Below are positions 1 to 39,605 of a stretch of DNA of 39,605 nucleotides, in pieces. The notes under the pieces were generated by a model, which had not been told where the DNA came from, did not search any database, and saw only the letters and a program-made list of their open reading frames with translations. The position numbers and the translations under genes are program-made. The DNA is from a virus: positions 1-39,605 of the IMG/VR virus record IMGVR_UViG_3300045996_000599; one strand, written 5' to 3'. Within the stretch, counting starts at the first letter, position 1; every line of letters begins with the position of its first letter.

Positions 1-456
1 GCTCTAAGGCAGATGACCCAAGCGGAACTGGCGGAAAGCGCTGGCATCAACGCGGGCCAGATCAGCCGATACGAGTCGGGGAACTCCGCCCCCCGGGCTC
101 TCGCTCTTGCAAAGATCGCCAAAGCACTCGACGTTTCGCTTAAGTGGCTCCAAACGGGGGAGGGGCGCCCCGAAGGATCAGAGCACGATGCGACGATAAA
201 AGCACTTCCGCAGACTGCAGACAAGTACCCAAGTGAAGAGGCGGACCGCTTTATGGTCCGAATGCCCCCAGGCATGCGCGACCGCATCGCTGAGGAGGCG
301 GATGCGAACGGTCGCTCAATGAACGCCGAGATCGTGCTGCGTTTGCAAGAGAGCTACGGCAGATCGGATGTGCGGGAAGAGCTCAGAGAGATCCGGGAGC
401 TTCTTTATCTGGTCGTTTCCGCGATCCCCGAGATCAAGCGGCTGGCGCAGAAGTAG
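1..456 (+). CDS. XRE-Arc fusion repressor (3' part; gene begins at 39407)
   Basis: Joined across the circle with 39407-39478, this gene encodes 175 aa. Residues about 22-80 are a Cro/CI-type helix-turn-helix (…QAELAESAGINAGQISRYE…). After a linker, about residues 107-145 form a ribbon-helix-helix of the Arc family (RFMVRMPPGMRDRIAEEA… then GRSMNAEIVLRLQ). The GRS..AEIVLRLQ core is shared with the leftward Arc-like protein at 37814-38233. Two DNA-binding modules in one chain suggest a regulator that reads two operator types or bridges them; this is inference. It is the last gene of the rightward immI-like operon and is followed by an intrinsic terminator. The ATG at position 13 is internal and is not the true start. 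Confidence 0.88.
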   Translation, partial: ALRQMTQAELAESAGINAGQISRYESGNSAPRALALAKIAKALDVSLKWLQTGEGRPEGSEHDATIKALPQTADKYPSEEADRFMVRMPPGMRDRIAEEADANGRSMNAEIVLRLQESYGRSDVREELREIRELLYLVVSAIPEIKRLAQK

Positions 457-479
457 CCGCACAACCACTTTCCCCACAG

Positions 480-507
480 AGCCCGCCATGCGCGGGCTTT
501 TTCTTTT
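480..507 (+). terminator. Intrinsic terminator after the XRE-Arc gene
   Basis: A 7-bp stem AGCCCGC/GCGGGCT (480-486 with 492-498) and a 5-nt loop are followed by a T-rich tract. It separates the immI-like operon from the tail-fibre and lysis genes. Late transcripts would need antitermination, or leaky termination here, to reach 518-3340. Confidence 0.85.
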
Positions 508-517
508 GGAGCCCTAG

Positions 518-1360
518 ATGCCCGTACCCAGCGCCATCAGCGATCTTTCCCAGACTGCCGCCAGCAACTCCCCCGCAGGCAGCGAAAGCCCGAACACCAT
601 CGATGATTACGCGCGCGCGCACGGCGCGTTCATCGCCACGCTGCGTGACGGCAAGGGCTTCACCGCGGAGGCGACGGTCGCCAGTGCCGCCACCTGCGAC
701 ATCGGCGGTGCGAACTCCCTGTTCGTCCAAGTCACCGGCGTGACGACGGTCACCAGTTTCGGCTCCAACTACACCGGCCCGCGCTTCCTGCGCTTTGCTG
801 GCAGCCTGGTTCTCACTCACAACGCGAGCACGCTGGTTTTGCCGGGCGGGGCCAACATCACCACGGCGGCCGGCGACACCGCCATCGTCGTGCCGCAGTC
901 GGCCGGCTGGCGCGTGGTGAGCTACGAGCGGGCGGCGAGTCTTCCTGCCCCCGGCAATGGCCCGGCGTTCAGCGCCTACCAAAGCGCAGCGCAAAGCCTC
1001 GCCACCGGCGTTCAGACCAAGATCCTGTTTCAGTCCGAAGAGTTCGACACGGCCGGCGCATTCGACGCCACGACCAATTACCGCTTCCAGCCCACGGTGG
1101 CCGGCTATTACCAGATCCAGACCACCGTCAGCCTGGCATCGATGGCGATTGCCTACCTCTTCAAGAACGGCTCGGAGTTCAAGCGCGGGCTTCAGTACAA
1201 CACGGCCAACATCTCGTCCAGCGTGACCGCCCTCGTCTACCTCAACGGGACCACCGATTACGTTGAGGCGTATGCACTGCAGTCCTCTGGGGCTTCCCAG
1301 AACACCAATGCGGGGGCGAACCTGACCTACTTCCAGGGTTTCCTGGCGAGGGCGGCCTGA
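518..1360 (+). CDS. Tail fibre/receptor-binding protein with C1q-like C-terminus
   Basis: 280 aa. The N-terminus (DLSQTAASNSPAGSESP…DDYARAHGAFIA) is the attachment segment often seen at the start of phage fibre proteins of GC-rich proteobacteria. The middle is Thr/Ala/Gly-rich beta structure. The last ~130 residues (from FSAYQSAAQSLATGVQ, through TNYRFQPTVAGYYQIQ) match the C1q/TNF-like jelly-roll used as a trimeric receptor-binding head. It is the first gene after the immI-like terminator, the place of the P22 tailspike gene 9. An SD-like GGAG lies upstream of ATG 518. There is no diversity-generating template repeat or reverse transcriptase. The host receptor cannot be predicted. Confidence 0.8.
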   Translation: MPVPSAISDLSQTAASNSPAGSESPNTIDDYARAHGAFIATLRDGKGFTAEATVASAATCDIGGANSLFVQVTGVTTVTSFGSNYTGPRFLRFAGSLVLTHNASTLVLPGGANITTAAGDTAIVVPQSAGWRVVSYERAASLPAPGNGPAFSAYQSAAQSLATGVQTKILFQSEEFDTAGAFDATTNYRFQPTVAGYYQIQTTVSLASMAIAYLFKNGSEFKRGLQYNTANISSSVTALVYLNGTTDYVEAYALQSSGASQNTNAGANLTYFQGFLARAA

Positions 1361-13357: not shown

Positions 13358-14032
13358 CTAGATCTTCTCGCTCTGCTTGTGCACGATGCGCCCGATGAGA
13401 AAGCTATTTTTGTCCAGCCACTCCTTGCGCGGGTAGCGGCGCTGGTCGGGATTGTCGGATGAGAGCCACCAAGAGCCGCCGTCGCGCACCAAGCGCTTGA
13501 TGACGGCCTCGCCTTCGTAGTTGACGGCAAACACCTCGCCATCCTTCGGCTCGGTGTCGGCGGTGTTGATGACCACCAGGTCGCCGTCGAATAAGGATGG
13601 CTCCATGCTATGACCGCGCACCTTGTGTGCCAGCAGCGCGGCCGGCTTGAATCCGCGCTCGCGCATCCAGTCCGCCCGGAAAAAGATCGGCGTCCCCTGC
13701 TCGTCGTCAGGGTCGACCGCGAAGCCGCTCATGCCACCCACGAGGCGCAGCTTACCTCTCTTGATGGGCACCAGCTCTGGATGCGCACCCATGTCGATGG
13801 GCTCGGGTTCAACAGTCTGTGTAGGCGGATCAAACCATCCCGCGTAGCCGGGCAGCGCATGGACGGCCTCGACGGTCTTTTCCGTGATCGGCCGATGCCC
13901 TGAAATCATCTGCCCGACGAAGGCGCCGTCCCGGTAGCCGAGGGCGATACCCAGCTTTACCCGCGTGCCGAACTTCTCGGCCAGCAGGCTCATTCGCTCA
14001 CGTCGCCACTTCGCGCGCAGGTCCGAGTCCAT
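13358..14032 (-). CDS. cI: CI-type repressor, LexA/S24 peptidase fold
   Basis: 224 aa from ATG 14032; a longer frame to 14086 would run through the operators and is rejected. The N-terminal ~60 residues are a helix-turn-helix (SLLAEKFGTRVKLGIALGYRDGAFV…). The C-terminal half is an S24 self-cleavage domain with Ser142 (GHSMEPSLFDGD) and Lys179 (AVIKRL) as the catalytic dyad, so RecA-stimulated inactivation is expected. No clear Ala-Gly cleavage site is seen in the hinge. It is divergent from cro across OR, and it likely binds TAGC-N4-GCTA at OR and OL. Confidence 0.92.
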   Translation of the reverse strand: MDSDLRAKWRRERMSLLAEKFGTRVKLGIALGYRDGAFVGQMISGHRPITEKTVEAVHALPGYAGWFDPPTQTVEPEPIDMGAHPELVPIKRGKLRLVGGMSGFAVDPDDEQGTPIFFRADWMRERGFKPAALLAHKVRGHSMEPSLFDGDLVVINTADTEPKDGEVFAVNYEGEAVIKRLVRDGGSWWLSSDNPDQRRYPRKEWLDKNSFLIGRIVHKQSEKI

Positions 14033-14042
14033 GCCGCAACAG

Positions 14043-14092
14043 TAGCGAATGCGCGCGCAGCGAATGCTATTGCCAATCTGTAGCAATCGCTA
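14043..14092. promoter_or_regulatory. OR: three CI/Cro operators
   Basis: TAGC-GAAT-GCgc at 14043-14054, cAGC-GAAT-GCTA at 14058-14069 and TAGC-AATC-GCTA at 14081-14092. The motif is identical in design to OL. The rightmost site is in the PR spacer and the leftmost lies next to the cI start, the arrangement needed for a lambda-like switch. Confidence 0.85.
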
Positions 14093-25210: not shown

Positions 25211-25431
25211 ACGCTGATGAAATTCTCCATGTGCTGCGCCTGGTGGCGATGGGGCGCGTGAACCACCCCGAGCAGGTGCGCTTTGCCGAGCTGCTGGCCG
25301 AGCGCCTGGCCGACAAGCCGCTGCCGGTGGTGGATGTGCCCGCGCCGGTGGAGATCGCGCTCGTGTCCGAGGGTGAGCCCGCTGCCGCCGAAGCCAAGCG
25401 CCGCGGCCGACCGCCGAAGAAAGCTGACTGA
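25207..25431 (+). CDS. Small protein with AT-hook-like basic tail
   Basis: 74 aa from GTG 25207. The helical N-terminus (EILHVLRLVAMGRVNHPEQVRFAELLAERL) is followed by a Pro/Val linker and the basic end KRRGRPPKK, an AT-hook core (RGRP). The last base of its stop is the first base of the portal ATG. A DNA-contacting role near the packaging motor is conceivable but speculative. Confidence 0.6.
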   Translation: MNADEILHVLRLVAMGRVNHPEQVRFAELLAERLADKPLPVVDVPAPVEIALVSEGEPAAAEAKRRGRPPKKAD

Positions 25432-27620
25432 TGGCAAAGATGGACGAAGCGCGCCTGTTGACCATCCTGCAAGCGCAGGAGGACAACTCGGCCCAATTCA
25501 CCTGGGGCATCCTGGCCGCCGAGCGCGAAGCCTCCATGCGGGAATACCACCGCATGCCCTATGGCACCGAGCAAGAGGGCTGGTCGCAGATCGTCACCTC
25601 CGACGTGCAGGACACGGTGGAATGGATGCTGCCGGCGCTGCTCAAGATATTCACCAGCACCGACCAGGCCGTCAGCTTCGACCCGGTCAGCCAGGAGGAT
25701 GTGAAGGGCTCCCAGCAGGCCACCGACGCCTGCAACTACGTCTTCTACAAGCAAAACGACGGCTTCCTGACCCTATACACCGCGTTCAAGGACGCCCTCA
25801 CGGTCAAGAACTGCGCCGTGATGTGGCGCAAGGAGAAAAAGCGCGTCAAGAAGGTAATCCCGGTCAAGGGCGCCACGCCCGAGATGCTGGCCATGCTGCT
25901 GGCCGAGGCCGGAGACGACGCCGAGATCGAGGCGGCCACCAGCACTCCCATGATCGACGCGGCCACCGGGCTGCAGATCGACCTGGTGGACGCGCGCATC
26001 GCCACCTACGAGGAGCGCACGCAGGTCAAGGTCGAGGCGTTCCCGCCCGAGCAGCTGCTGATCAAGCGCGACTGGACCAGCCCGATGCTGCAGGACTGCC
26101 CCTACGTGGCGCGAAACCTGCCCGTCACGCTGTCCGACCTCAAGGAGATGGGCTTCACGGTCACGGCCGACGATCTGTCGGACTCGGACAACTCCAACGT
26201 CAGCGCCGACAAGAACTTCCGCGACACCCGCAACGGCTCGGCCGACGACAGCACCGCCGCCGATGTGGCGATCGACAGCGACGACGAGAGCCAGACCGAA
26301 GGCTTCCTGCGCATCGAATACGTGCTGGTGGACTTCGACGGCGACGGCATCGCCGAGCGCCGCTGCATCTATCGCCTCAAGAACAAGATCCTCAGCAACG
26401 ACGAGTGCGAGGATGTGCCGTTTGCCACTGCCTCGCCCATCCTGAACCCGCACCGGTGGGACGGCATGAGCGTGGCCGAGACGGTCAGCGACCTGCAGAA
26501 GCTGCGCACCGAGCTGACCCGGCAGATGGTCAACAGCGCGGTGCTGGCCAACAACCCGCGCACCAAGGTGCTCACCGACGCCAACTGGAGCCCGCTGGCG
26601 AACGTGGACGACCTGCTCACCTCGGCGCCAGGCCGCATCCTGCGCCAGCGCACCGGCGACGCCATCCAAGAGCATGTGACGCCGTGGGTCGGCGGCCAGA
26701 TGTTCCCGATGCTCGAGTACATCGACCACATGCGCGAGCAGCGCACCGGTGTATCGCGCGCCCAGCAGGGCATCGATGCCAACGCGCTGCGCCACGACCG
26801 CACCGCGGCCGAGGTGATGCAGACGGCCAACGCCGCGGCGGCGCGCATCGAGCTGATCGCGCGGATCTTTGCCGAGACGCTGGTCAAGCCGATCTTCAAG
26901 GGCATCTTCAAGCTGCTGGCTGAGGGCGACATCGGCAAGCTGGCCTTCCGCCTGCGCAATGAGTTCGTGGAGTTCGACCCGAGCGAATGGCGCGACGGCT
27001 ACGACATGACGATCAATGTCGGCCTGGGCACCGGCGACAAGGGCCAGCAGGCAGCCATCCTGCAGGCGATCTTCCAGCAGCAGGCCATGATCGGCCAGTC
27101 GCCGCTGGGCAAGATGCTGATCAAGCCCAAGAACATCTTCAACACGGTTGCCAAGATCGTGGAGAACGCCGGCTTCAAGAACGTTGGCGACTTCTACCAG
27201 GACCCCGGCGAGGAGCCGATGCCCGAAGGCGGTCCGCCGCCGGAGATGCAGCTCGAGCAAATGCGCCTGCAGGCCGACGCGCAGAAGTTCCAGGCCGAGA
27301 CCCAGCGTCTGCGCGAGGTCGAGCAGATGAAGATCCAGGCCAAGCTGACCGAAACGCAGGGCCAGCTGGAGCTGCAGGCGGCCAACGACGCCCGCGACGG
27401 CGAGCGCTCCATGATGGAGGCCGCCCACAAGGCCGAGATCGAGCGCATGCAGCTGGAGTTGGATCGCTACAAGACCGACGCGGACAACCAGACGCGCATC
27501 CAGGTGGCCCTGATCAACCAGCAGGGCAGGGCGCAGGCCGCGGCCCAGAACGCCGCCATACGGCAGCAGCAGCAACAGGATTTCGATGACCGAGCAGCAG
27601 ATCAGCAACCGCGGACTTGA
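25431..27620 (+). CDS. P22-like portal protein
   Basis: 729 aa. The N-terminal block (SMREYHRMPYGTEQEGWSQIV, then DTVEWMLPALLKIF) and the core (EYVLVDFDGDGIAERRCIYRL; ASPILNPHRWDGMSVAETV; QQGIDANALRHDRTAAEVM) are the familiar parts of P22-type portals. The last ~130 residues are Gln-rich coiled coil (EMQLEQMRLQADAQKFQAET), like the P22 portal barrel. It forms the dodecameric DNA channel to which TerL and the tail dock. The size fits P22 gp1 (725 aa). Confidence 0.93.
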   Translation: MAKMDEARLLTILQAQEDNSAQFTWGILAAEREASMREYHRMPYGTEQEGWSQIVTSDVQDTVEWMLPALLKIFTSTDQAVSFDPVSQEDVKGSQQATDACNYVFYKQNDGFLTLYTAFKDALTVKNCAVMWRKEKKRVKKVIPVKGATPEMLAMLLAEAGDDAEIEAATSTPMIDAATGLQIDLVDARIATYEERTQVKVEAFPPEQLLIKRDWTSPMLQDCPYVARNLPVTLSDLKEMGFTVTADDLSDSDNSNVSADKNFRDTRNGSADDSTAADVAIDSDDESQTEGFLRIEYVLVDFDGDGIAERRCIYRLKNKILSNDECEDVPFATASPILNPHRWDGMSVAETVSDLQKLRTELTRQMVNSAVLANNPRTKVLTDANWSPLANVDDLLTSAPGRILRQRTGDAIQEHVTPWVGGQMFPMLEYIDHMREQRTGVSRAQQGIDANALRHDRTAAEVMQTANAAAARIELIARIFAETLVKPIFKGIFKLLAEGDIGKLAFRLRNEFVEFDPSEWRDGYDMTINVGLGTGDKGQQAAILQAIFQQQAMIGQSPLGKMLIKPKNIFNTVAKIVENAGFKNVGDFYQDPGEEPMPEGGPPPEMQLEQMRLQADAQKFQAETQRLREVEQMKIQAKLTETQGQLELQAANDARDGERSMMEAAHKAEIERMQLELDRYKTDADNQTRIQVALINQQGRAQAAAQNAAIRQQQQQDFDDRAADQQPRT

Positions 27621-34765: not shown

Positions 34766-36105
34766 TGGCAGGGCTCCTTGATTTTTTGCAGACGCCGGCA
34801 GGCCAGGGCCTGCTCACGGGCGTGGCCTCCTACGCCGCCAATGCGGGCCGCGGTCAGCCGGTCAATAGCATCGGCCGCGGCTTGCTCGGCGGGCTTGCTG
34901 GCTATGGCGTCGCCACCGACCGGCAGGCTGAATTGGCACAGCAGGCCAAGCGCAATGAACTGTGGGACGCGCAGCTGGGCGCCTACAAGACCGATGCGGC
35001 GACCAAGCAGGCCGCCCTGGACCGCCAGCGGGCGCAGATTGAGGCGCTGCCAACCCTGTTCTCGCAGACCTCGCCGGGCGCCTTCGCACCGTCGATCGAC
35101 GGGATGGGGCCTACCATGCCGCAGTCGATGCAGGCGCCTCCCAAATTCGACGCACTGCGGGCTGCTTCGCTGGGGTTCACGCCCGAGCAGATCAAGGCGT
35201 ACGCCGAACTGCCCAACGCCGGCCGGGCCAAGGTGGCGCGCACCATTGAGCGCGACGACGGCCGCGGCGGCAAGGAAACCCTGCAGGTGGACGAATTCGG
35301 CCAGGCCGTGGGCGATGCACTGCCAGCGTACCTGGCGCCCGTGCAGGTCAACCAGGGCGACAGGGTGACGATGGTGCGGCCTGCGGCCGGCGTCTCGCTG
35401 CCGGTGAACATGAGCCCGGATGCAAAGGCAAGCAACGCAGTCGCGTGGGCGAACAACGCAGTTGCGCGCGAGCGGCTGGCGATCGACAAGAACGGGGGCA
35501 CAGCACCCGCCGGTTATCGGTGGAACGCGGATCGCTCCGCCCTGGAGGCGGTGCCCGGCGGCCCGGCGGCTTTGGGCAAGGCACTGCCGACCAAGCTGGC
35601 AAGCGACCTGGGCGAGCAGGCCACCGTCGTGGACAGCACCGAACGGTTCAAGAGCACGTTCAAACCCGGCTACGGCGGCAAGACCGTCCTCGGGGAGTTG
35701 GACAACACCTCGAAGCGGGTTTTCGGTGACGACACCGGCCAGGCGCAGTGGTGGCAGGACTACGCGCTGCACGAGGCGACCGTCCGCAACAAGCTGTTCG
35801 GCGCATCGCTGACCGGCAACGAGCAGGCGAACTGGCTCAAGTTGACGGTGACGCCGCGGATGGATCCGGCGCAGATCGCCGACAACATCAAGCGGCGAGC
35901 CGAGATCGAGGCCAACGCGCTGGCGCGGATGACGGCCGGGGCGGCTGCCGGCGGCTACAACAAGGAGCAGATCGAGGCCGTCACCGGCCGCCCGGTCGCT
36001 GCCAAGCCCACGGCCGGCGGCCCCATGAAGGGGCAGGTGGTGGACGGATTCAAGTTCATGGGCGGCAATCCCGCCGACCCGGCGAGCTGGGAGCGCACCA
36101 AATGA
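34765..36105 (+). CDS. Internal virion/ejection protein (gp20-like position)
   Basis: 446 aa from ATG 34765 (TGATG overlap, GGAGG upstream). The N-terminus GLLDFLQTPAGQGLLTGVASYAANA is a glycine/alanine helix like those of ejection proteins. The body is mixed with charged helices (GVATDRQAELAQQAKRNELW; FTPEQIKAYAELPNA). The C-terminal part has VVDSTERFKSTFKPGYGGKT. No lysozyme motif is seen. By order it corresponds to P22 gp20. Confidence 0.68.
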   Translation: MAGLLDFLQTPAGQGLLTGVASYAANAGRGQPVNSIGRGLLGGLAGYGVATDRQAELAQQAKRNELWDAQLGAYKTDAATKQAALDRQRAQIEALPTLFSQTSPGAFAPSIDGMGPTMPQSMQAPPKFDALRAASLGFTPEQIKAYAELPNAGRAKVARTIERDDGRGGKETLQVDEFGQAVGDALPAYLAPVQVNQGDRVTMVRPAAGVSLPVNMSPDAKASNAVAWANNAVARERLAIDKNGGTAPAGYRWNADRSALEAVPGGPAALGKALPTKLASDLGEQATVVDSTERFKSTFKPGYGGKTVLGELDNTSKRVFGDDTGQAQWWQDYALHEATVRNKLFGASLTGNEQANWLKLTVTPRMDPAQIADNIKRRAEIEANALARMTAGAAAGGYNKEQIEAVTGRPVAAKPTAGGPMKGQVVDGFKFMGGNPADPASWERTK

Positions 36106-37721
36106 GCGGACCTTGGGAACGATACGCGCAGCCGACCTCCGGGCCGTGGGAGCGCTACGCACAAGCGCCGGCCGAGCAGCCGAAGGCAGAGCCGGAGCAG
36201 CCGAAGGCCGGGATGCTGGCCAACCTCGCGGCGGGCGCCGTCCGGGGCGCGGGCAGCATCGGCGCAACTCTGGTGGATGCGGCGCGCACGCTTGGCGACT
36301 CAGTGACGCAGGCAACCCCTGCGGCGATGCGTCCTGCGGTGACGGCAGGCAACGCCAGCGCGCCGCGCGGGGCGGAGCTTCGCTCTGGCATGGATGGCGG
36401 CCTGCAGGCGCTCGGCGCTGATCCAAGCAGCGTCGCGTACCAGGGCGGAAAGATCGGCGCCGAGGTTCTTGGCACGCTGGGCGTAGGTGGTGCGCTTGCC
36501 AAGGGGGCCACGGCTCCCGCGGTGGTGGAAGCCCTGCGCACAGGCGGAATGTCGGTAGCGGGCACCAAGGGCCTGCAAGGGCTCGCGCTGCGCGCTTCTG
36601 GCGGCGCGGCTACTGGCGGCGTGACCGCTGGCCTCATTGATCCAGATCACGCCGCTTCGGGTTCGGTTTTGGGCGCGGCGCTTCCGGTCGGATTGGTTGG
36701 GCTGGGACGCGCAGGTCAAGCGCTAGGCGCCAAAACGCACCAGAACGTGAACCCGCAGCTGCTCGACTCCGCGAAGGATGCCATTGGCGCGGGCTATGTC
36801 ATCCCGCCTGCGACGGTGAAGCCAACCTTCACCAATCGCGTGCTGGAGTCCACTGCCGGCAAGATGGCGACCCAGCAGATGGCATCGGCCAAGAATCAGA
36901 ACGTGACGCAGGGCCTGATCCGAAAGGCGCTGGGCCTGCCGGAAGACGCAACGCTCAACTTGGCCACGCTGGAAGGCATCCGCAAGGAGGCCGGCAAGGC
37001 GTACCAGGCTATCGCGGACCTGCCGGTCAAGCCAGCACAAGGCGCCTCCGGCCTAATGAATCAGGCCGAGCAAGCCGCCATCAAGCCGCGGCAGATGATC
37101 GAGTCGCTGAAGCAGGCGCGCAACGACGCGCAGAGCTGGTTCAAGAGCTACAACGCCTCGGCCAATCCGGAGCATCTGGCAAAGGCGAAGGCCGCGGAGT
37201 CGCTTGCCTCTCAGCTGGAGGACACCCTTGAGGGTTATGCGGCCTCGCTGAATGCGCCGGAACTCCTGCCGGCGCTGCGCGAGGCCCGCAAGCGCATCGC
37301 TCAAACCTACACCGTCGAGCGTGCGCTGAACGAGGCGACGGGCAGCGTCGATGCGCGCGTGTTCGGCAAGCTGTTCGCAAAGGGCAAGCCGCTGAGCGAC
37401 GGACTGGAGAAGGTCGGGCGCTTCGGCTCCGCCTTTCCCACGGTGGCGAAGCTGCCGGAGGTTGTCGGCAGCCCTGACGCCCACAATCTCCGGTCGGTGG
37501 CATCGCTGGCGCTGGGGAGCGGGGGGCTTGCGTCAGCCGGGCCACTCGGCTTACTCGCCGGAGCGTTGCCATATGCCGCCCCGGCCACCGCGCGCTCTCT
37601 CATGTTCTCGAAATCGGCGCAACGCGGGTTGCTGTCGGAGCCTGCGACCGCAGCGGCGCCTCAGATCGGACTGCTGACCGACGCTATTCGCCGGACGAGT
37701 CCCGTTCTCCTCGCCCAGTAG
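36102..37721 (+). CDS. Large ejection protein with N-terminal GPWERYA repeats
   Basis: 539 aa from ATG 36102. The N-terminus repeats GPWERYAQ twice within 21 residues; single GPWE-Y motifs start many large podovirus internal proteins. A Gly/Ala-rich stretch (NLAAGAVRGAGSIGATLVDA; GGVTAGLIDPDHAA) and long helices follow. By order it matches P22 gp16. The stop lies 38 bp inside the convergent 39-aa gene on the other strand, marking the end of the structural block. Confidence 0.72.
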   Translation: MSGPWERYAQPTSGPWERYAQAPAEQPKAEPEQPKAGMLANLAAGAVRGAGSIGATLVDAARTLGDSVTQATPAAMRPAVTAGNASAPRGAELRSGMDGGLQALGADPSSVAYQGGKIGAEVLGTLGVGGALAKGATAPAVVEALRTGGMSVAGTKGLQGLALRASGGAATGGVTAGLIDPDHAASGSVLGAALPVGLVGLGRAGQALGAKTHQNVNPQLLDSAKDAIGAGYVIPPATVKPTFTNRVLESTAGKMATQQMASAKNQNVTQGLIRKALGLPEDATLNLATLEGIRKEAGKAYQAIADLPVKPAQGASGLMNQAEQAAIKPRQMIESLKQARNDAQSWFKSYNASANPEHLAKAKAAESLASQLEDTLEGYAASLNAPELLPALREARKRIAQTYTVERALNEATGSVDARVFGKLFAKGKPLSDGLEKVGRFGSAFPTVAKLPEVVGSPDAHNLRSVASLALGSGGLASAGPLGLLAGALPYAAPATARSLMFSKSAQRGLLSEPATAAAPQIGLLTDAIRRTSPVLLAQ

Positions 37722-37803
37722 AGCGCCCCTTCCAGAAGCCGTAGACGAAGGCGCCAATGCCGAGCACGACGAATTTGACGATCATGAAATCGATGATGTC
37801 CAT
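37684..37803 (-). CDS. 39-aa membrane protein at the sieA-like position
   Basis: ATG 37803, 39 codons, stop at 37684, overlapping the end of the ejection gene tail to tail. One TM helix (IDFMIVKFVVLGIGAFVYGFW) is followed by a positively charged tail (KGRSTGRGERD). It is the second gene of the leftward immI-like transcript, after the Arc-like repressor. P22 has the exclusion gene sieA at this place, but SieA is larger; a superinfection role is only suggested. Confidence 0.5.
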   Translation of the reverse strand: MDIIDFMIVKFVVLGIGAFVYGFWKGRSTGRGERDSSGE

Positions 37804-37813
37804 GGCTCTCTGA

Positions 37814-38233
37814 TTATCGGCGGCCCTTGGCCAGTTCTTGCGCCACCTGCGCCACGTACTGTGTTGCGGCTTGTTCCTCATGGTGAGCGTGCACTAGCCG
37901 GTGCTCGATGTCGCGCATCTCCTTGAGGGCAATCATCTTCTCGTCTTCGGAGGCGGCTTGGCGCTCCCGCATCCGAAGCAGCTCTAGACGAAAGTGGAGG
38001 TTGTGGATTTCGGCTCGTGCGGCGGCCTGGGCGTTCTGAGCACGATCTAGCTTCACCTCAAGTTCGAGCCTCTCTGTATTGGTGAGCGCAGGAGGCTCCT
38101 GGGCGAGGCTCTGCTGCAAACGAAGGACGATTTCCGCAGTCAGTGAGCGACCGGAGGCGGCCGCCAACTCGTCAAGCCTCTGCTTTAGCTCGGCCGGGAG
38201 CCTCACATTCACCTGCGGATCGCTTCTTGCCAT
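37814..38233 (-). CDS. Arc/Mnt-like ribbon-helix-helix repressor with coiled coil
   Basis: 139 aa. Residues ~7-45 form the RHH domain (PQVNVRLPAELKQRLDELAA, GRSLTAEIVLRLQQSL). The rest is a long charged helix (LELEVKLDRAQNAQAAARAEI; ERQAASEDEKMIALKEM) that could mediate tetramerisation, as in Mnt. Its start lies 82 bp from the divergent Arc-like gene, across tandem palindromic operators. It is probably expressed in lysogens and represses the rightward operon, in the role of Mnt of P22 (inference). Confidence 0.85.
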   Translation of the reverse strand: MARSDPQVNVRLPAELKQRLDELAAASGRSLTAEIVLRLQQSLAQEPPALTNTERLELEVKLDRAQNAQAAARAEIHNLHFRLELLRMRERQAASEDEKMIALKEMRDIEHRLVHAHHEEQAATQYVAQVAQELAKGRR

Positions 38234-38250
38234 TCGATGAGTTTAAGTGC

Positions 38251-38278
38251 TTGACAGAGTTAAGCACCGTGCTACATT
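38251..38278 (+). promoter_or_regulatory. Pant-like rightward promoter
   Basis: TTGACA (38251-38256), 16-bp spacer, TACATT (38273-38278). A full palindromic operator lies in the spacer and another just downstream of the -10, so an RHH repressor bound here would block it. Confidence 0.8.
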
Positions 38279-38301
38279 AAGCACCGTGCTACATCAAGCG
38301 C
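38262..38301. promoter_or_regulatory. Tandem 17-bp-spaced RHH operators
   Basis: AAGCACCGTGCT at 38262-38273 and again at 38279-38290 (17-bp period), and a half-match AAGCGC at 38296-38301 in the same phase; an inverted element AGTGCTT lies at 38246-38252. Each copy is a palindrome, AGCAC-C-GTGCT. Such tandem sites suit cooperative binding of RHH dimers. Confidence 0.8.
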
Positions 38302-38315
38302 AGAAAGGAAGTGCA

Positions 38316-38483
38316 GTGCAAGAGCGAAAGCAAGTGCCAATTGGCCTGCGAGTTCCGCCGGACGTGGCGGAGTGGCTTAGGCGTCAGGCGCAAGAGAACC
38401 ATCGAAGCGTCTCAAGCCAAGCGGCCTGGGCGATTGAGCAAGTGAAGAGGCAGCAGGAGGCGCATGCAAAGCACCCGGCCTGA
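38316..38483 (+). CDS. Arc-like ribbon-helix-helix protein
   Basis: 55 aa from GTG 38316, chosen because AAAGGAA lies just upstream; an upstream ATG at 38247 would be inside the promoter. KQVPIGLRVPPDVAEWLRRQ, then RSVSSQAAWAIEQVK is a minimal RHH fold, the size of P22 Arc (53 aa). As the first gene of the rightward transcript across tandem operators it probably autoregulates, as Arc does. Confidence 0.85.
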   Translation: MQERKQVPIGLRVPPDVAEWLRRQAQENHRSVSSQAAWAIEQVKRQQEAHAKHPA

Positions 38484-38559
38484 AAAGAGTGAAGCCAGCG
38501 ACGGCGGCAACCGTGCTGGCTTCGGAGTGATGACCAACCCCGTTAGGAAGGACAACGTG

Positions 38560-38871
38560 ATGGATGCTACCGGAACCCTCAGCGTCGAGCAAGTCAAGGA
38601 CCTGCTCGGAGACATCGCCCTGCTGGCGCACCAAAGCCGGCGCATGGCGTACCACTTCTGCGATGCGAACGAGGACCCCGAGTCGGCGGAGATGCTGATT
38701 GTCAGCTTGCGAGACGCCGCCTGCCGGATGGGCTTCATGGCGGACCGGGCGCTGCAACACCTGGGTGAGGGCGCGGCGATATTGAGCTCGGCCGACGAGT
38801 GGCTGATGTCGCCAACCTATGTCGACCATGGGCGCGCCGCAAGTAAGACGCTGACGAAGGGGGCGCACTGA
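38560..38871 (+). CDS. Hypothetical protein of the immI-like operon
   Basis: 103 aa. ATG 38560 is supported by AGGAAGGA (38545-38552); an upstream ATG at 38464 overlaps the Arc-like gene and lacks such a site. The sequence is helical (LSVEQVKDLLGDIALLAHQ; ESAEMLIVSLRDAACRMGFM) with a Cys in each half. The last base of its stop is the first base of the Rha ATG. A similar helical layout is frequent in phage regulators, but none is identified. Confidence 0.65.
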   Translation: MDATGTLSVEQVKDLLGDIALLAHQSRRMAYHFCDANEDPESAEMLIVSLRDAACRMGFMADRALQHLGEGAAILSSADEWLMSPTYVDHGRAASKTLTKGAH

Positions 38872-39410
38872 TGTACGACATCTCCGAGTTTGTCGTCCTG
38901 AACGACACGACCCTGACGACCGACAGCCGGCGAGTGGCACGTCATTTCAAGAAAGCGCACAAGAACGTGCTTCGCGCGTTCGACCAGCTTGACTGCAGCG
39001 AAGAGTTTCGTCGGCTCAACTTTGAGCCCACGATCGATACCGTGCCCGGCCCCAAGGGGGCGACCCGTCATGAGCGGATCGTTCGCATGACCAAAGACGG
39101 ATTCGTGTTCTTGGTCATGGGATTTCGTGGGGCAAAGGCCGCCGAGACAAAGGAGGCCTACATCCGTGCCTTCAACTCGATGGCCGACCAGCTGCAGCAA
39201 ATCGGCATGAGCCTTTGGGAACAAAGGCTGCAGCTGGAAAAGCGCGCCGCAACGGGTTTCAGTTGGGCGTCCTTTGGCGCGAAGCGCTTGAACGACTGGA
39301 AGAAAGAAAAGCCAGTGATTCAGGAAGAGCGCGAGCGGCTGAAGGTGGAGATGGAGCCGCCGCTGTTCACGATGCCCTCGCCTCCGAGCGATCCTATGAT
39401 GAGCGCATGA
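38871..39410 (+). CDS. Rha-family phage regulatory protein (ant-like position)
   Basis: 179 aa. The Rha domain is clear: LTTDSRRVARHFKKAHKNVLRAF, then RMTKDGFVFLVMGFRGAKAAETKEAYIRAFN (about 15-105). Proteins with this domain act as antirepressor-like regulators, and Rha of phi-80-like phages interferes with infection in IHF-deficient hosts. The C-terminal part is charged and helical. It occupies the place of ant in P22. Its stop overlaps the XRE-Arc start (ATGA), so both are made together. Confidence 0.9.
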   Translation: MYDISEFVVLNDTTLTTDSRRVARHFKKAHKNVLRAFDQLDCSEEFRRLNFEPTIDTVPGPKGATRHERIVRMTKDGFVFLVMGFRGAKAAETKEAYIRAFNSMADQLQQIGMSLWEQRLQLEKRAATGFSWASFGAKRLNDWKKEKPVIQEERERLKVEMEPPLFTMPSPPSDPMMSA

Positions 39411-39605
39411 ACTCGCTTCCTTCGCCAAACCGGCTGCGGTTAAGAACAGATATCCCGGAGAGGGTGGCCTTTGCCAGGGCTCTAAGGCAGATGACCCAAG
39501 CGGAACTGGCGGAAAGCGCTGGCATCAACGCGGGCCAGATCAGCCGATACGAGTCGGGGAACTCCGCCCCCCGGGCTCTCGCTCTTGCAAAGATCGCCAA
39601 AGCAC
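39407..39605 (+). CDS. XRE-Arc fusion repressor (5' part)
   Basis: The start ATG 39407 overlaps the Rha stop. The first 24 codons (NSLPSPNRLRLRTDIPERV…) lie in unique sequence, and from 39479 the frame continues in the repeated 127 bp, i.e. at base 1. The full protein has 175 residues and is described at 1-456. Confidence 0.88.
   Translation, partial: MNSLPSPNRLRLRTDIPERVAFARALRQMTQAELAESAGINAGQISRYESGNSAPRALALAKIAKA
39479..39605. repeat. 127-bp terminal overlap equal to 1-127
   Basis: Bases 39479-39605 are identical to 1-127. The reading frame of the XRE-Arc gene runs through it without break. This is the overlap left when a circular or circularly permuted sequence is assembled; 127 is a common assembler k-mer size. 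It is not a biological terminal repeat. Confidence 0.93.

Follow-up and report, generated by a model that had tools for sequence, protein, structure and literature searches.

The closest described counterpart of the locus studied here is the immI region, or 'ant moron', of phage P22 (NC_002371), which holds mnt, arc, sar and ant between genes 16 and 9. This region is an insert in the late operon (PMC8022706); ant is under the control of Mnt and Arc, and its product targets the c2 repressor (PMC11016777). We compared with it a cassette in a virus record of 39,605 bases, the whole of which is referred to here as the window. Like immI, the cassette is placed between the last ejection gene and the tail spike or fibre gene and has a leftward Mnt-type RHH gene, a rightward Arc-sized RHH gene and then a presumed antirepressor gene, and its predicted operators would likewise lie over the rightward promoter, one inside it and one near the start site. 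It differs from immI in having two identical predicted operators where P22 has distinct Oarc and Omnt sites, in carrying Rha in place of Ant and extra genes for a 103-aa protein and an XRE-Arc fusion, in lacking sieA, and in its unrelated phage backbone with an SU10-type portal.

Related arrangements are found in two cultured Pseudomonas phages and in one uncultivated viral locus. Medea1 has an Arc-sized RHH gene directly before Rha, with a divergent regulator, among late (tail) genes, but its leftward regulator is an HTH protein, its Rha is longer and its tail genes are of the siphovirus type. In the podovirus UFJF_PfDIW6, a divergent RHH pair of the ARxDP type adjoins the tail-spike end; unlike the window, this phage has a P22-type Ant, and the module adjoins an integrase gene. 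The uncultivated locus, L181, encodes an RHH pair and the closest Rha found (68% identity), but its RHH-L is not of the ARxDP type and no XRE-Arc gene was seen. Its module is flanked by an integrase-type gene on one side and by convergent structural-type genes on the other. The window differs from the other modules in having an orphan gene between RHH-R and Rha.

The cassette and its phage

The first and last 127 bases of the record are identical (positions 1 to 127 = 39479 to 39605, exact), and the contig therefore reads as a closed circle. The record opens this circle within the XRE-Arc gene, so that the split of genes at the window ends is an artefact; in the closed circle the XRE-Arc gene spans the ends, from 39407 to 456, and the cassette continues past 39605. 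The window encodes an integrase, a CI-type repressor with an S24 peptidase domain, a YdaS-type (Cro-like) gene, a terminase and an SU10-type portal, and judged from these genes the phage is probably a temperate podovirus. The features of the locus, followed by two genes elsewhere in the window, are as follows.

36102..37721, + strand: last ejection-type gene (539 aa), native left neighbour; an ORF with homologues in the same place in relatives
37684..37803, - strand: membrane protein (probably 39 aa, Met at 37803); homologues in the same place in relatives without the cassette
37814..38233, - strand: RHH-L, Mnt-like repressor (139 aa); Arc PF03869, E=7e-12; P22-type Mnt, 1mnt
38251..38278, + strand: predicted rightward promoter TTGACA-16-TACATT; sigma-70-like, 10/12 matches
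38260..38293: two predicted tandem 17-bp operator repeats, each with AGCACCGTGCT; perfect repeat, same palindrome in other Val8 modules
38316..38483, + strand: RHH-R, Arc-sized repressor (55 aa, GTG start); Arc and RHH_5 matches
38560..38871, + strand: orphan protein (103 aa); no family or relative found
38871..39410, + strand: Rha-family protein (179 aa), presumed antirepressor; PF09669, E=6e-24; TIGR02681; phrog_518, E=6e-53
39407..39605 joined to 1..456, + strand: XRE-Arc fusion (175 aa); HTH_3, E=2.6e-12; Arc, E=2.6e-15
478..500, + strand: terminator-like hairpin before the fibre gene; similar hairpins in relatives
518..1360, + strand: fibre-type gene, native right neighbour; conserved N-terminus in the same place in relatives
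13358..14086, - strand: CI-type repressor with S24 peptidase domain; Peptidase_S24, E=1.1e-18
25431-27620: SU10-type portal

The ejection role of the 539-aa protein is suggested by its position. The SU10-type portal sits in a temperate phage of ~39 kb, and related loci (L005-L061, L083-L176) occur in IMG/VR and in genomes of Comamonas, Pseudomonas, Variovorax and Polaromonas.

Three cassette proteins matched the Arc family PF03869, for which the curated cut-off is 20.4 bits: XRE-Arc with 56.4 bits, RHH-L with 45.4 bits and RHH-R with 22.5 bits, a weak match (E=1e-4) that barely passes. The likely start of RHH-R is the GTG at 38316, an in-frame codon preceded by a Shine-Dalgarno-like stretch, which yields a divergent gap of 82 bp. 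The nearest characterised relative of RHH-L among phage records was P22-type Mnt, which was also the top match in the PDB (1mnt), and its strand retains the residues that never vary among Mnt and its relatives (Arg, Asp-Pro, Asn and Arg); no close relatives of RHH-L were found in viral_contigs. Rha scored above the curated cut-offs of both Pfam (PF09669, 84.8 versus 29.9 bits) and NCBIfam (TIGR02681, 83.2 versus 45.95 bits). It is short here, and its ORF11CD3 match remained under the cut-off. A Pfam profile search for P22_AR_N gave no match in the gene at this place, i.e., no P22 Ant-family protein is encoded there.

Two parts of the cassette are unusual, the orphan 103-aa protein and the XRE-Arc fusion. 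A second protein with both XRE and Arc domains was found neither in phage records nor in viral_contigs nor in 401 genomes of one bacterial family, all of which gave single-domain matches only. The 103-aa protein had no relative in viral_contigs and no family in Pfam, PHROGs or NCBIfam, and it was modelled as helical with low confidence (mean pLDDT, 63). The preliminary description had listed this gene set and order, and indeed all genes are present and open in that sequence, the extra 103-aa protein (38560-38871) included. Its central proposal, a P22 immI-like cassette in an unrelated podovirus, is largely borne out by the Mnt, Arc-antirepressor arrangement in the same place; the parallel drawn to sieA is not.

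Native flanks and the inserted segment

With an internal structural protein as the bait, 57 related loci, including a few near-duplicates, were aligned across the ejection-fibre junction. In these relatives the gap between the two genes measured 134 bp in the median and never exceeded 695 bp, compared with 2,274 bp in the window, and no match to the cassette proteins was found at the junction of the aligned loci. Parts of the flanks, in turn, are already there in relatives. Thus, the cassette is an insertion. In 21 related records found via the portal, no Rha was detected, and an Arc domain was present in only one, on the terminase side of the portal. Third-position GC was 0.59 to 0.81 in the cassette genes versus about 0.83 to 0.95 in most structural genes.

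The small membrane gene at 37684..37803 had been taken for an analogue of sieA. However, a hydrophobic leftward ORF was present in 35 of 49 relatives (rightward control, 0/49), and the gene is a native one that occurs in relatives without the cassette. A SieA-like neighbour was also ruled out by size, the protein having ~39 aa compared with about 164 aa for P22 sieA, and by the lack of a family match. A terminator-like hairpin was found within the gap of 29 of 51 relatives, mostly immediately 5' of the fibre gene, and arrival of the pre-fibre terminator together with the cassette was ruled out, since relatives without the cassette have one. Both the membrane gene and the terminator thus probably belong to the native genome, with the cassette added between them. 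As a separate observation, this small leftward ORF for a membrane protein, at the 3' end of the ejection gene, is a conserved feature of the phage family (L073, L085, L109, L114, L130 and L143 included).

Promoter, operators and proposed working

A sigma-70-like consensus scan of 2.2 kb found a single site, the rightward promoter at 38251-38278 (1 found versus 0.3 expected); no leftward (sar-like) promoter was found between 37400 and 39605. The 82-bp gap contains two identical AGCACCGTGCT palindromes, one in the spacer between -35 and -10 and one at +1, which corresponds to -17 and 0 counted from the predicted start. The repeats and the palindrome are more than chance: none of 300 shuffles gave an 18-bp direct repeat as in this gap, and for the best palindrome the P value against shuffles was 0.01. 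For comparison, the P22 record places Oarc inside the ant promoter and Omnt after it, at about +8 by the same measure. The 93-bp gap of L181 also contains two identical tandem palindromes, ATCTACCGTAGAT, the arms of which differ from those in the window.

We interpret the cassette as an inserted antirepressor module of the immI ('ant moron') type, flanked by the native small membrane gene and by the pre-fibre terminator, a module that would be silent in the lysogen and whose Rha would counter the CI-type repressor upon infection; we assign this reading a probability of roughly 0.7. In a lysogen, both AGCACCGTGCT sites, which lie over the promoter, would be occupied by RHH-L, and the rightward operon would stay off. 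Upon infection, before RHH-L has accumulated, the promoter would fire and Rha would be made early. Like P22 Ant, Rha would then interfere with the CI-type repressor and weaken repression, the product of 13358..14086 being a possible target. RHH-R, encoded by the first gene of the operon, would later shut the promoter off, and XRE-Arc may add a further layer, perhaps as an extra repressor or as a link to the CI/Cro region. The data establish the gene order, the insertion as compared with relatives, the promoter and operator sequences and a statistical link of RHH-L-type proteins with this operator; binding, the timing of expression and the action of Rha on CI are predicted by analogy with P22. 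A second immunity system able to override CI, as the preliminary description had put it, is plausible, and the window would then represent a natural case of two lysogeny-control layers in a podovirus lineage otherwise without a second layer.

Several points speak against this reading: the weak Arc match of RHH-R, the orphan gene ahead of Rha, the lack of a sar-like promoter in the consensus scan, and the shortness of Rha with its ORF11CD3 match under the cut-off. The action of Rha on CI would be the weakest step of this mechanism, since the phenotype described for Rha of phi80 and P22 is that growth is inhibited in IHF-deficient hosts (PMC4936722). The same phenotype speaks for a Rha whose target is not the CI of this phage but host physiology or other phages, in a self-regulated moron whose RHH pair merely silences Rha in the lysogen, as does the fact that P22 carries its rha gene apart from ant (PMC4936722). 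Lone Rha genes without an RHH pair are, moreover, present between tail genes in L182 and L183, as if repeatedly inserted into late operons. Here and elsewhere, however, Rha fills the slot of an antirepressor family behind the same RHH pair, and we consider it unlikely that the module serves Rha in this way only.

RHH proteins are common antitoxins, and with an orphan protein at hand the cassette could also be read as a toxin-antitoxin-like or other defence module in which the 103-aa protein or Rha is the effector. This is very improbable: no toxin family was matched in Pfam, PHROGs or NCBIfam, and the divergent RHH pair, promoter and operators match the immI plan. Decay of immI regions in some P22-like phages (PMC8022706), together with the absence of the cassette from the relatives examined, would fit a decaying or non-functional immI-type relic, but each of the five genes has an open frame and a start signal, and the promoter and operators are perfect repeats, so that a relic is hardly to be expected. 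Of the signs named at the outset as refuting the proposal, absence from related phages was found in those examined, and decay was not.

Distribution of the module and a possible rule of operator recognition

Besides the window, eight Rha loci in viral contigs (L181 among them) had an RHH gene directly before Rha. A divergent RHH gene was detected by HMM in six of the eight, whereas L213 and L217 carry a divergent XRE-type regulator instead; L185 has a similar arrangement with a small protein undetected by HMM. A broader survey, in which a scan with the Mnt-type alignment was supplemented with known cases, gave at least 68 distinct divergent pairs, with a median of 119 aa for the long RHH, 53 aa for the short RHH and 110 bp for the gap. 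Among 62 next genes scanned, the families were P22_AR_N (17), Bro-N (14), AntA (9), ANT (7), Rha (5), KilA-N (4) and ORF6N (4), whose counts can overlap, and integrases and tail proteins were among the flanking genes. Rha in place of Ant had been regarded as a new part, but other phages, a cultured one included, also have Rha behind an RHH gene, and the antirepressor families vary freely. The cassette has the look of a swappable module that was acquired and that many phages share, and hence of a variation on a known device, not of a new device. Apparently, the P22 immI switch of the textbooks is one case of a module that occurs in many unrelated phages and whose antirepressor is exchangeable; no paper describing such breadth was found in the open-access literature searched.

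Rightward sigma-70-like promoters were present in 42 of 85 module gaps, compared with 8.7 in shuffles, and sites were typically located at -42 and about +9. An ACCGT/ACGGT core occurred in 40 of the 68 perfect odd palindromes of module gaps (shuffle mean, 0.68; maximum, 3). We compared residue 8 of the Mnt-type protein with the operator in 59 modules (among L269-L427) that have a CACsGTG site and a gap within a limit of 200 bp. All 18 modules with Val at this position, one of which is the window, have AGCACsGTGCT, a count from which the gap limit omitted L327 (Val with a TCAC-type site, gap of 348 bp, pairing doubtful), and a further 19 Val modules lack any CACsGTG site. This motif was absent from all 41 modules with Phe or Met, where the arms are mostly TCAC or CCAC. 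Position 8 was the most informative among positions 2 to 45, but the tree is poorly resolved and offers at most five independent pairs, so that shared descent could explain the association and a formal independence test lacks power.

Tentatively, and at clearly less than even odds, we propose that immI-type modules are widespread and exchangeable, that their Mnt-type repressors read the CACsGTG core, with residue 8 (Val or Phe) helping to set the neighbouring base pair, that the antirepressor is freely swapped and that XRE-Arc ties the module in the window to the main CI/Cro switch. The wider survey of modules and the association of residue 8 with the operator are the more interesting outcome of this work, and the candidate recognition rule (Val8 or Phe8) is testable with short DNA and purified protein. 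Position 8 aligns with Phe10 of Arc, and a mutant structure at that very position, Arc FV10, has been solved (1bdv).
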